From NCBI GenBank assembly GCA_031763025.1, contig JASSKH010000019.1, positions 8,080,336 through 8,144,335 of the forward strand: a DNA stretch of 64,000 nt, given 5' to 3'. This document shows positions 286-56,120 of the stretch, in pieces. The position numbers and the translations under genes are program-made. Source of the DNA: Macrocystis pyrifera (lineage: Eukaryota > Sar > Phaeophyceae > Laminariales > Laminariaceae). Numbering within the stretch: the stretch's first letter is position 1; the number at the start of each line of letters is the position of its first letter. Under the pieces are notes generated by a model. That model was not told where the DNA came from and ran no database searches. It saw only the letters and a program-made list of their open reading frames with translations.

Positions 286-3200
286 CTGAAAGAAGTACCA
301 TGTGTGCATCCATACAATTATGAAAAAACAAGAAAACACTTCGTACCAAAACGTGTATGGTTAAATATTAGTCGTTACCTGAAATCGTTAGACGCGCCCA
401 AAAAAAAAAACAGAAAAAAAGGCCAGCCAAACACGCCATGACAACAACAACAACAACAACAACAAAATGGGAGTAAGGCCAGGACAGATATATCGTGTTT
501 TTTTTTTTTCAGTTTTTGTTCACTCAATTTTAGTGCACCTCCTCCCCCCGCCTCTGTTTGGAACACAAGAACAAAAGTGGGGTGTCGTTTTTTTTTTTTT
601 TCCCCCGTTCACCCTTGGTTTTATTGTGGCTGATGCGCGTACGTTTTAACACACAAGAGAGGTTGTGCGTTGCGTACATATCTTAGCTGCCCAATGGTGC
701 CCCCCAAGGTCTCAACACGGACGAATACGTAAACCGCTACTTCGCACTTGCAAGAGTGTTGAGTTTTTTTGCACACGGGTGCGATCGGTGTTCAACGCTC
801 GATTCATATCCACAAAACCGAAAAAGAACACCTATACCGAACGAGGCATTTTCGGACAAAAAATCTGGTCCATAGAGCCTTCCGAAAACGTATTGCTCGA
901 CTTTTATTTCGGGGGACCATAGTAAATAGGACCTACGGTACATGCAAAAACCTATATATTTTCCTATTTTTACCAACAGTATTTGGTCCTATTTACTACG
1001 GTCCCCCGTAATAGTAGCACTCTTTTTTCTTTATCGTTGTTGACCCGTTAAGAACCGCAGTACCATTTTGGTCACAAACTAACTATTACTGCTATTACGG
1101 GGGTCCATAGTAAATAGGACCAATTATTGCTATTACGGGGGGGTCCATAGTAAATAGGACCAATGGTATACATAAAAACCTACAAGGTATATATTTACCT
1201 ATTTTTTTCGAACAATATTTGGTCCTATTTACTATGGTCCCCCGTGACAGTAAATATCATAGGTAAAAATACAGTTTTTTTTTTGCATCGTAGGTCCTAC
1301 GTAATATGGCCCCCGTAATAGTCAAACTCCACGTAAATTGTCCCCAAAGCGGTACTCTGCAGTCCTACGAGCGCCAAAAGAGACAACGAGCGACGACAAA
1401 ACGATCGCACTCCTGTGCAAACTCGACGCTATCTACAGATGTATCCTTTCATCATGAGGTCACATAAAACCCATACTACAGTATTCATATATATATATAT
1501 ATATATATATCTCAAGTACGCGCGATCGAAGCATCACACGCAGCTTTCGCAAAGATGACTTGGGACGATCTCCCAGCAGCCGCAAAATACGTTTTTTTTT
1601 ACTTATTTTATTTTATTTTATTTTATTTTATTTAGTTTCGCACATTTCACAAAAAAAATATTTTTTTAATCAAATCTCACCTTCGTCTTCTTGAAAGACA
1701 AGTTCCCCCCGTGTGCCCGAAGTTCATAAAAGTCGTCTGGTCCGTTTGACTGGATTCTCAGAATGTCTGCGTCGCCGTCCGCATCGGCGCCGTGAACGTA
1801 CAGCGTAACGCCGTCCACGATTCGGAGGTCGCGCGCCAGCAGCCAGTAGCCGGTGGGGTCCCCATCGGTGACCTCTCCGTCCGCGTCAAGGATGTACAGG
1901 TCCCCGTTGCTTCCCTGGCCCTCATACAGGGTTGTGAGGGTGGCACACCCTCCCCCCTCGAGGTCTGGCGAGACAAAGGAAGCATGGTTTTGATTCGAAA
2001 ATTGGGGGGGGGGGGGGGGATTGGGGGCAAAGTAGATGGTATGTTTTTGGTTTGAAAGACGTGGATCGAGACAAAGGAGTGATGTTTTGGAATTAAATGG
2101 GGGGGGGGGGGGGGGGTCGGGGGGGGGGGGAGGGGGGCGGGGTGCTCATGTCATGCATGGCCGAAGTCGTACGACCGTAGACCCTCGAGGCCTGGCGAGA
2201 AATGGGAGATATATTCTTCGGTTTGAATGAGCGGGGTGGGTGGGTGGGGGGTACTCGTTTGTTGATTCCCTTAGTCGTGTGATCATTGACCACGCATCCT
2301 TTTTCGAGACGGAGCACCGTTGCTACTCCAATTATAGACACCTCCATGAGTTGGGCGCTCCTTCCTTTGCTGCGGCATGTCACATATTACGGGGGACCAT
2401 AGTAAATAGGACCTACGGTACAAACAAAAACCTATGTATTTCTCTATTTTTACTAACAATATCTGGTCCTATTTACTATGGCCCCCCATAATAGAAACCT
2501 TTTCTAATGGAGAGGGGGGGGGGGGGGGGGGGGGGGGGGGGGGGGGGGGGGTTCTTCTTATTACGGGGGTCCCTTATTACGGGGGTCCAAAGTTAATAGG
2601 ACCTATGGTATACATGAAAACCTATATATTTGCCTATTTTTACTAACAATATTTGGTCCTATTTACTATGTCCCCCGTAATAGGCATGAGCGAGGTACAG
2701 CACTCTAATGACGCACGATGATCGCACTCTTATTATTATTACCGCAAAACTATATCGCCAGCCAAAGCAGTACTCGCGAGAGTACACACCCTTTACCATC
2801 CCGACACTATCGCACTCCAGTGTCGCGACACTATTTCCACGCTCCGTGATATCGCAACACTATAGGCACTCTATTACGGAGGACCATATTAATAGTAAAT
2901 AGGACCGAATATTGTCAGTAAAAAACAGGCGAATATATAGGTTTTTATGCATACCGTAGGTCCTATTAACTATGGACCCCCGTAATACCGCAAGAGCACC
3001 TTACACATCAGACAGCTCATCGATTCCCACTTCATGATATATACATTCATTCCCGATTGGCAAGACCTAGCTCCTTGTTGCCGCATGGGAGCTGTATAAT
3101 CTGCATACTCTAGGACGCGATGCAGGTGCTGCACAAGATATACTAACGGCAGTTGCACCGCCACCTGGCCGTGACGGGGGGGCATACTAAATACGACCTA

Positions 3201-6200
3201 CGGGCTAGCCAAAAACTCATATAATTCCCTATTTTTACTCATAAAAAAAATGTTTCCCCATTGATTATGGTCCCCCTTAAGATCGCCCTCTTATTATTAC
3301 GGGGGACCATAGTAAATAGGACCCAATATTGTGAGTAAAAAATAGGTAAATATATAGGTTTTTATGGATACCCTAGGTCCTGTTAACTATGGACCCCCGT
3401 AGTAGGGGGGAACACCATCGCATTCTTGCTCGTGAATCCCGCTCGAATCATCGACGACACTCATGTCGCCGAAACTGTCGCCCTCTGCTTTCGCAGCACT
3501 GAAACCGTCGCACTCTCTGCTTATAATATCGCAACCGCACACCGCAACCCGATTATATCACGCTCTCTTTATCGCAGCTGAATTACCTCAACCCAATTAT
3601 CGCAACGCACCACGCCATGGCAGCTCGATTTCCGCAGCACACCATCGCAATCACGTTACCGCAAGACCACATCACTGATGCTATTATCGCAGCTCTTATT
3701 ACCTCACTCTACACGAAGTGCCAGATGATTCATTACGCAGGGGTTTACGGGTGGGTGAAACGCATAGTATTATCGAGGCACGAGAAAATGCGAGGTTTAC
3801 ACGCACGGAAGAAGTTTGGGCAACCAATCAGATCAACGCGGGTTAATTGTACGTAACAATTGGATAGCCTTGAGACACACCTTTGCCTATTTCGCAGTTG
3901 GTGACCAGCGAGCTAAGCACGTTGTCAAGCAGAGTCAGAGCCACGAGGGTAAAGGTATGATACACGTTAGTTTGAGTTGAAGAGGGCTCTGTGCCGAGCG
4001 TTCGATCCGATCTGTTGGAATGTTGAGCAAGCAGGGGTTTTCGCCAGCCAGACATTTTTTTGTCCAAAAAATAAAAATCTTGATCGAGAGACTTTCCTTG
4101 GAGAGAGAATCGTTCGTGGTGTCTTCTGAGCTAGCTGCGAGTGTGGACAGTGTGGACAGTGTGGACAGTGTGGACGGAAAGCCTTGGGGACCATGTCGGA
4201 GGGCGTTTCACTGTTCGAGTCATGACTTGACTCAACAGCAGCAGGGTGAACAACTTCACATTCATAGTACAGTAGTTATCTGTGCACGAGACGATATCGC
4301 AAGAAATTATTTTCGCGACGCGAGACGATATCGCACAAAAAATATTTTCGCGAGTCTGTTCGCATACTTGGCATTATCGCAAACACCGCAAACAAATCGC
4401 ATGGGATATGCAACACTTGGAACTACGTAGCGTGACCAACTAGTATGTAACACTAGAGGTGGGGTGAACGGCGAGTACAGTACGCGTACATGCTTCTGTT
4501 TTGTAGGAGACAATATCGCAAGACACTAGTCTAAACAGATCGCACTCACACATCGTAGACGAGGTCACCCGCACGTCGGCAACTCGTTCACAGGACGTCG
4601 GGATCTTTCCGCCGGAAGAGCCCGGCGTGGGCGCCGGCGCCGGCGACGACGCCTCCACACCTGCATAAAACCCGCCAAGCCAAAAAAGAAAAAAACAAGC
4701 ACCAGATTATCATGTCTACTACCGTGATATTATATTAGCATTCCGACAAAGCTATATAGGGTGTGGGTAGAAGAAATTATTTACCAGGCAAATTATGTAT
4801 TCGACTAATGAGGCGTTTTCTCGGCCTGCACCACGCCTCCTCTTCGTCGGGGTGCCCACTGTCTGCAGTACACCCCTACCCTTGAAGAAAAACGAGTCTA
4901 CTCACCGATTTCATACGCCGTGAACCCCAGGTATCCTCCGCAGATCAAGCTGTCGTCACCCGGACAAGGGTAGTCGCAGTTGCCCACGCCGTTGACGTCG
5001 AGCTCAACGTCTTCCGCGGCACACCTGCCCAAAGGGTTTACAGTGAGTTGAATGGAGGGGGGGGGGGGGGGGGGGGGGGGGGGCACTCATTTGTTGCTTG
5101 CCTTAGTCATTTGACCATTGACAACGCATCCCTTTCGAGACGGAGCACGGAGGGGGGGGGTACTCATTGTCATGCATGGTCGTGGTCGTATGAGCACGGA
5201 GGAGGGGGGGGGGGGGAAAGGCGTACTCATTTGTTGTCTTGCCGTAGTCATTTGACCAACCATTGACCACGCATCCCCTTCGAAAGGGAGTTGGAGCGAG
5301 GGAGGGGGCGGGGGTACTCATTATCATGCATGGCGGTAGTCGTATGACCATAGACCCTCGCATCCCTACAATGCCGGGACGGACCACGTCGGGTTTTCAC
5401 CGAACAGGCAGGCATTGCTTGCACCAAGCGCGAGGCGCCGTGAGGTGGGCACTAAGATTGTTTTGTTTTCGTGGGGGTTTTTTTACACACTTGTAGTTCT
5501 GAGCTCATGTGTGCAAGCAGCTACTAGAGTACTTGCCGCCCCGTCTAGAGTGCACTCCATCATTTTACAGATTAATTCATCTTTGTACATTCAAAGTGTG
5601 TTTGCCTAGAAAGCGTGACCTACAGTTATCGCCGGCTATATTCAGGCAGGGCGAACTGAGCACTCTACAGTTAGGTCTGCGCGCGAGCTCCCTTTTGTAG
5701 ACGTCGCCGGCTATATGGGTGCCCGTGGACGTTTATATGCAAACTAGTACCATTGTTTTCGACCAATCACAGCCAAGCAAACTGACCACAGCCGTCATCA
5801 ATAGCATCTAAATCCCCCAAGCCTGAAGCATTCTGTGTGACTAACAGTTCCAAGATACAGTAGCGAAAAAATACAAAAGCTTTTGGGATGGGGTATAAAA
5901 AAATAAAGATATAAATGAACCACAGCAGCCTGAATGAACACGGAACACGCAAGAGCAGCAGCCGCAGCATCAGCAACAGCTTCAGCATCACCAGCATCAC
6001 CACCAGCAGCATCACCAGCATCACCAGCATCACCACCAGCAGCAGCAGCAGCAGCAGCAGGCAGCATCACCACCAGCACCAGCACCACCAGCAGCTTCTG
6101 CGGCGGCGGCGGCGGCAGCAGCAGCAGCAGCAGCAGCAGCGGCAGCAGCAGCAAGAGATGGAAGGCGGCGATGCCGTGGGGGGGCCGTGCCTTCCTTCTG

Positions 6201-55713: not shown

Positions 55714-55821
55714 TATTACGGGGGACCATAGTAAGTAGGACCAAATATTGTTGGTAAAAATAGGTAAACATATAGGTTTTATGTATACCATAGGTCCCAT
55801 TAACTATGGACACCCGTAGTA
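55714..55821 (-). mobile_element. Family A MITE with scar at its target duplication
   Basis: Complete; TATTAATA (55820-55827) begins at its right TSD. Confidence 0.88.
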
Positions 55822-56120
55822 TTAATATGAAATCGCACACACCTGGTAACATATTATGCGTATGATACATACAAGTGCATGCCCCGTGCGGTAGTGTATG
55901 ATTTGTATGTGCATGCTTTGCATGTGAAGGCGTTCTGCGATAGAGGTTCACCCTAATTTTTCTGAGGGTCCCCTCGCTTGAGGAGCTCCGCACCTCATCC
56001 GAAAGAAACCTGACTTCAACAAAAAATCAAATTGCATCCCGATGAATAATCCCATGGCCCGAGTATCCAAAAACGTCATTTTTCGAAACAAGGCTGGCAT
56101 TCCGACGACTTCGGGTTAAT

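Follow-up and report, generated by a model that had tools for sequence, protein, structure and literature searches.

What makes one short word recur so often in a stretch of kelp DNA? The stretch is 64,000 nt of the Macrocystis pyrifera assembly GCA_031763025.1 (contig JASSKH010000019.1, positions 8,080,336 to 8,144,335; referred to here, at its full length, as the window), and the word is the 8-nt palindrome TATTAATA, which lies scattered among copies of a miniature inverted-repeat transposable element (MITE) that we call family A. The original prediction, made from the letters of the window alone, read the word as the scar of family A excision. We found that TATTAATA is very probably the footprint that the family A MITE leaves on excision, and we refer to its occurrences here as scars.

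An over-represented word in the window and the assembly

The word occurs 37 times in the window (36 had been counted originally, and all 13 starts then quoted are correct) vs. 1.03 expected from an order-2 Markov model, a 36-fold excess (roughly 30-fold had been claimed originally). Dinucleotide-preserving shuffles of the window held 1.63 copies on average and 5 at most, and none of 100 shuffles reached 37. At order 2, TATTAATA is exceeded in this ratio by eight 8-mers, one of them the overlapping ATTAATAG and most of the rest simple repeats; a maximal-order model expects 32 copies in the window, but this model already includes the word's own sub-words. The excess extends beyond the window, both to the whole assembly (537,376,219 bases in 223 contigs), where TATTAATA has 94,130 sites vs. 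7,522 for the reversed word ATAATTAT of identical composition, and to a sample of 20 stretches of 10 kb (200 kb from contigs C125-C134 only), which holds 53 copies vs. 1.2 expected and in which TATTAATA ranks first by count among all 256 palindromic 8-mers. This sample is denser in TATTAATA than the genome average (0.27 vs. 0.18 per kb); together with the window it makes up the 264 kb used below (0.05% of the genome).

The word might instead reflect base composition or microsatellites, serve as a functional motif, or be a trace of piggyBac, since TTAA lies inside it. Simple TAG and TTA repeats are indeed common here, several of them with a higher over-representation ratio, but the reversed word, equal in composition, is 12.5-fold less frequent; piggyBac has TTAA as its duplicated target and excises without a footprint (according to the extract of PMC8151067); and repeat copies show TATTAATA gained at TA, accompanied by the target preference of a transposon (see below). 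We regard these explanations, taken together, as extremely improbable.

The family A MITE

Family A is a non-autonomous DNA transposon of ~109 bp that inserts at TA and duplicates it. Its copies are mostly 108-112 bp, near-palindromic, with a median identity of 88% to the query that we used, and of the form TA-TTACGGGGG...CCCCCGTAA-TA, in which the termini are inverted repeats and inverted similarity extends further. Of the 43 merged stretches in the window, the copy at 22392-22500 (+ strand) is typical: it measures 109 bp and is bounded by TA at each end. TA flanks both sides, as a duplicated target, in 45 of the 75 elements with both ends found in window and sample. Five elements have related matches, and for three of them an empty relative holds a single TA (the other two comparisons are unclear). 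The three are two nested copies and the copy at 60873-60981 (+ strand), which is inserted in another repeat; this last copy has five related matches, and those listed are empty at TA, with CATCCTACTAAGAACCGC at window position 10418 and at position 2534 of sample stretch L026.

The exact 11-nt end TATTACGGGGG occurs 33,213 + 33,392 times genome-wide (66,605 exact ends) vs. 107 + 105 for the reversed control, and merged copies stand against scars at 27 vs. 53 in the 200-kb sample and 43 vs. 37 in the window. The densities of the two are correlated (Spearman 0.50, p 0.007, 27 bins). Scars may also share the TA of a MITE end (CCCCCGTAATATTAATA), a junction with 1,072 occurrences genome-wide and none for its reversed control; window examples are the scar at 20935-20942 and that at 55820-55827, which shares the end TA of the copy starting at 55714. 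(Scars are given without strand throughout.)

Three other memberships were considered and rejected. Family A is not piggyBac, as its duplication is TA rather than TTAA, and the TTAA is part of the gain, not a duplicated target; nor is it PIF/Harbinger, whose target duplication is 3 bp and of TWA type, as that of family A is the 2-bp TA. Its ends (TTACGGGGG) likewise differ from Stowaway-type termini, the consensus of which is generally given as CTCCCTCC... A search for family A ends in viral contigs gave 0 matches, in a set from which records near the window's genome may be excluded.

The word as a 6-nt gain at TA

Each of the 90 scars in window and sample was replaced by TA and its flanks were aligned to the 264 kb. 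A repeat copy spanning the point was found for 12 of the 90 (some of these alignments are weak), and at least one spanning copy carries plain TA for 11 of the 12 (plain TA/spanning copies for the twelve scars in turn: 8/9, 0/1, 1/7, 25/59, 20/22, 1/2, 1/1, 5/41, 2/3, 1/1, 6/7, and 3/5). As other copies of the same repeats have plain TA, TATTAATA is a 6-nt gain. We read the low fractions as poor local alignment or real divergence, and weakly aligned cases (the window scar at 21616 and L017_4215) were kept out of the main evidence. Judged by their flanks, five of the twelve scars lie in family A copies and seven in other repeats.

That four window scars lie inside family A copies, as originally noted, is correct, and for three of them the clean gain was recovered by alignment to the MITE query. 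These are 2887-2894 (CCA-TA-GTAAATAGG, in the copy at 2872-2987; 8/9 spanning copies plain TA), 22015-22022 (in the copy at 21943-22060; 25/59), and 37958-37965 (CCA-TA-GTAAATA, in a degraded copy; 20/22). The fourth, 21247-21254 (TGT-TA-GTAAAAATAGG, in the copy from 21204), is read as a gain by site comparison, as it shares its site with a nested insertion at 11542, and the scar at 22015 occupies the same site on the other strand; its single spanning paralog has TG there and was scored as 'other'.

A self-alignment scan for indels between repeat copies of the 264 kb placed the TTAATA class at 5 of 62 loci with 6-bp indels, second to AAATAG (9 loci). In a recount, TA-anchored 6-bp gains made up 12 of 59 loci vs. 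5.0 after shuffling of the inserted letters, and TATTAATA was the commonest among them (5 loci).

Scars could also have hitch-hiked inside other repeats, in which case the count would stem from a small number of ancestral words that were copied, and not from as many separate events. While 12 of the 90 scars do lie in repeats with another copy in window and sample, the plain TA in other copies for 11 of these 12 argues against this, as does the lack of any spanning copy in the 264 kb for the remaining 78 of 90 (repeats of moderate copy number would escape a 0.05% sample), and we consider hitch-hiking highly improbable.

Three states at one homologous site

The site TTGT-TA-GTAAAAA lies inside family A itself. 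It is empty in 20 matches within the 264 kb, among them the copy at 20829-20936 (- strand; TTGTTAGTAAAAAT). It is occupied in the copy that begins at 11504, where a complete family A element with TA on both sides is nested at 11542-11650 (+ strand), and at the homologous site of the copy from 1093, where a second nested element lies at 1131-1249 (+ strand) and its right TA duplication has decayed. Finally, TATTAATA stands at this site in two copies, those with the scars at 21247 and (opposite strand) 22015. The alternation of TATTAATA with an empty TA and a full MITE that the excision reading foresees is thus present in the window at a homologous site, where different repeat copies, not different strains, show the three states. 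Of the two outcomes originally named as contrary to that reading, lack of a genome-wide excess and lack of any site with such alternation, neither was observed.

Target-site preference

Scars and MITE ends share a target preference, TAC-TA-GTA. The three bases preceding the TA are T53 A47 C57 (%) at MITE ends and T53 A47 C44 at scars vs. about T30 A30 C20 at all TA. Scar flanks correlate with the family A preference at r 0.92-0.94 (mean score 0.41, the best of all words tested), and the preference is kept in scars more than 200 bp from any family A end (r 0.94). Among other words, TACWGTA is intermediate (r 0.53; mean score -0.24), and TACSGTA, TACCWGGTA, and TACCGGTA correlate at -0.03, -0.56, and -0.84, respectively; mean scores of all tested words other than TATTAATA and TACWGTA are -0.8 or lower. 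In a held-out test, the model was built from 64 window MITE ends and applied to the 53 scars of the 200-kb sample (106 flanks), and 0 of 20,000 draws of TA flanks reached the observed score. We take this preference to be the best evidence that the scars were most likely made by family A or by an element moved by the same enzyme.

Might TATTAATA be the footprint of a different TA element that also has TT...AA ends? No transposase was tied to family A by the PF13358 and PF03184 searches described below, and some scars here seem to come from other families, for which no elements were found. Against this, scar flanks match the preference of family A better than those of any other word tested, and no other TT-ended family stood out among the end pairs listed in a scan of the 264 kb. 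We regard a different source as very unlikely.

Footprint length and a proposed mechanism

Counts in the 264 kb, observed vs. expected at order 3, were 90 vs. 10.2 for words retaining two nucleotides of each end (2+2, i.e. TATTAATA, the expectation for which is inflated by the scars themselves), 9 vs. 3.9 for 2+3, 2 vs. 0.85 for 3+3, 3 vs. 0.3 for 3+4, 0 vs. 0.04 for 4+4, and 0 for 5+5, while the 3-nt form TATTATA/TATAATA showed no clear enrichment (77 vs. 65.6). Products that can be recognised therefore retain, as a rule, two nucleotides per end. The originally proposed arithmetic of TA-TT-AA-TA fits the ends of family A. The TA-TTAA-TA gain in repeat copies, taken with the three states, is indirect evidence of a footprint of 2-4 nt between two TAs, a trait of Tc1/mariner elements.

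An extreme internal deletion of the MITE, by replication slippage between its inverted ends and without transposase, could in principle leave the same word, as the MITE is near-palindromic and palindromes can be deleted. Slippage predicts, however, a range of end lengths, and 4+4 and 5+5 are absent and 3+3 has two cases in the 264 kb (though 3+4 exceeds its expectation); we find slippage barely credible as the source of TATTAATA.

For excision by a transposase, ISY100 of the Tc1/mariner family offers a model, as it is cleaved exactly at the 3' ends and two nucleotides inside the 5' ends (PMC2170065, extract). Such a cut on family A would leave a TT overhang on each flank; since TT cannot pair with TT, end joining would proceed by fill-in and sealing, which would yield TA-TT-AA-TA, that is, TATTAATA. 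For family A, we infer which kind of enzyme cuts, that the cut is staggered by 2 nt, and how the break is repaired. The earlier statement that the element excises often and heals imprecisely is upheld as regards the footprint; the frequency is cumulative and carries no time scale.

Transposase search and contrary observations

Several observations weigh against family A as the source, and we set them out together. A profile search of the genome with PF13358 gave 0 matches, and no family A-like end pair was found around the PF03184 domain at the 7 of 43 loci inspected, so that no transposase is tied to family A among the searches made. Many spanning alignments do not have plain TA (at 22015, 30 of 59 are 'other' and 4 are 'ins'), and the three states are drawn from different repeat copies and not from alleles at a single locus. 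Repair products that are messy go unrecognised, so the cleanness of the footprint is partly selection, and the 3+4 word is in excess of its expectation. TACCWGGTA density also correlates with that of TATTAATA (0.53), and therefore part of the regional correlation between MITEs and scars may come from insertion-tolerant DNA. Finally, the site GGWCCA-TA-GTAAATAGGACC inside family A has a TA...TA gain at 826 genome places (417 + 409), and among the 100 gains listed there, TACATA accounts for 23, TACWGTA for 15, TACCWGGTA for 7, TACGTA for 6, TAATA for 5, and TATTAATA for only 3, with one further TATTAATA within a longer gain.

The PF03184 (DDE_1) search itself gave 43 matches, 40 of them over the cut-off and several in open frames longer than 330 aa (e.g. 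G000:C202:8066650-8067204). At locus L030, two imperfect ends flank the domain in the wrong orientation, and at L034 two ends lie on one side of it. A Pfam scan of 10 of the 87 window open reading frames of at least 110 aa found no family at the cut-off, with a weak match to MRP_L53 (E 0.052) below it.

Scar-like words that suggest other TA families

The gains at GGWCCA-TA are not the only sign of other words. Of 248 loci with 4-12 bp indels, 41 were TA-anchored gains vs. 13.3 expected, and the top TA-anchored words of the recount were TACGTA at 4 bp (3/68 loci), TACAGTA at 5 bp (3/40), TATTAATA at 6 bp (5/59), and TACCAGGTA at 7 bp (4/36). Given these words in the gain spectrum and the indel scan, scars seem to have been left by several families of TA elements, and among these words TATTAATA fits family A; the TACATA gain could be a tandem duplication of CATA, and TACWGTA has what we take to be the exact form of the Sleeping Beauty footprint.

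TACCWGGTA is in ~33-fold excess, with 75 occurrences in the 264 kb (59 in the 200 kb; 16 in the window, including 10798, 18095, and 18688; also in sample stretches L009-L028), and amounts to 7 nt gained at TA, between flanks that differ from the family A target. No element with TACC ends that could be its source was found in the 264 kb, by a scan of end pairs (among the pairs listed), by counts of TACC words, or by alignment ends; one candidate, TACCAAGCCAC, was set aside because, by eye, it is internal to a different repeat and does not mark the end of an element cleanly. We also observed a TACCAGG-like gain at AAAACC-TATATA, at the same place in the family A copies of L001, L008, L017, L020, L024, and window 1093, which may be due to subfamily inheritance or to a hot spot.

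We consider it a serious possibility, though at somewhat less than an even chance, that the history of cut-and-paste transposition can be read from the kelp genome. Several TA families would each have left scars with a distinct palindromic word (family A with TATTAATA, others with TACCWGGTA and TACWGTA); the scars would equal or exceed in number the copies that survive, and would account for a considerable part of small insertions. Some of these families may be 'ghosts' known only by their scars. If this is true, scars per surviving copy would estimate the lifetime transposition of each family, which is usually unobservable.

Other positions and repeats in the window

The remaining window scars include two just outside family A copies, at 7622-7629 (copy from 7498) and 22514-22521 (copy at 22392-22500), one in a poorly aligned repeat at 21616-21623 (1/7 spanning copies plain TA, 6 other), one in an AT-rich run that may be chance (26193-26200), and one near the edge of a TAG repeat (27483-27490). 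Two pairs are closely spaced, at 27766-27784 (starts 27766 and 27777, 11 bp apart) and 34300-34323 (starts 34300 and 34316, 16 bp apart). Further exact matches lie at 9917-9924, 14451-14458, 16617-16624, 17596-17603, 17761-17768, 18449-18456, 20762-20769, 22858-22865, 23609-23616, 25930-25937, 26598-26605, 27810-27817, 28412-28419, 28960-28967, 29194-29201, 30751-30758, 30904-30911, 34475-34482, 37192-37199, 46052-46059, 53049-53056, and 53800-53807.

A short repeat family with inverted ends (GTCCCGTTTTGGGGACAAA...), perhaps another MITE, occurs at 16231-16299, 18585-18653, 19921-19989, and 25692-25760. Very long G runs, which may be hard to assemble, are found at 2000-2560, 5050-5320, 24290-24360, and elsewhere (634 overlapping GGGGGGGG in the window).

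Comparison with known systems

Excision is normally hard to see without strain comparison, and a fixed scar word can be counted in one assembly; here, 94,130 sites beside 66,605 surviving exact ends allow past excisions to be set against surviving insertions. The results also suggest that excision of DNA transposons gives rise to recurrent insertions of 4-7 bp in a brown alga, whose lineage belongs neither to plants nor to animals or fungi. While Tc1/mariner elements are known to work by this mechanism, the genome-wide scale is unusual. No description of an excision-scar word at that scale, for brown algae or any other group, was found among the listed titles and abstract openings of open-access papers.

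The comparisons that follow draw on extracts of the cited papers. Excision footprints of Tc1/mariner elements are 2-4 bp (PMC7913693), that of the pogo element Passer is 0-4 bp (PMC9976928), and Sleeping Beauty leaves a CAG footprint (PMC8151067), which kelp TACWGTA resembles. Family A is like the Tc1/mariner elements (IS630; ISY100, ZB, and Sleeping Beauty) in its TA target, the duplication of that target, and its short footprint. It differs from Sleeping Beauty in that the analogous 3-nt form TATTATA/TATAATA is not clearly enriched, and from Tc1/mariner assays in that its footprint is read as a genome-wide word rather than from an assay.

Family A is also like grass Stowaway, a short MITE that duplicates TA, is moved by Tc1/mariner enzymes, and has inferred footprints holding 1-4 bp of its ends between TAs (PMC1925063); whereas five different footprints are described there for a single intron, in kelp one word recurs genome-wide. 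In rice, 8 of 94 putative DNA-transposon excisions were 'perfect' and most carried deletions or filler (PMC4423477). As in kelp, end-joining repair of excision there leaves altered sequence; the rice survey, however, includes messy repair, while the kelp count is of the clean word only. A further comparison is with the brown alga Ectocarpus, whose Tc1/mariner elements are mostly non-autonomous (e.g. the 217-bp TcMar-N1_Ec32; PMC12477816) and in whose report, within the main text as extracted, the words 'footprint' and 'excision' do not appear. Family A is like these Ectocarpus MITEs, from a related lineage, by description rather than by sequence.

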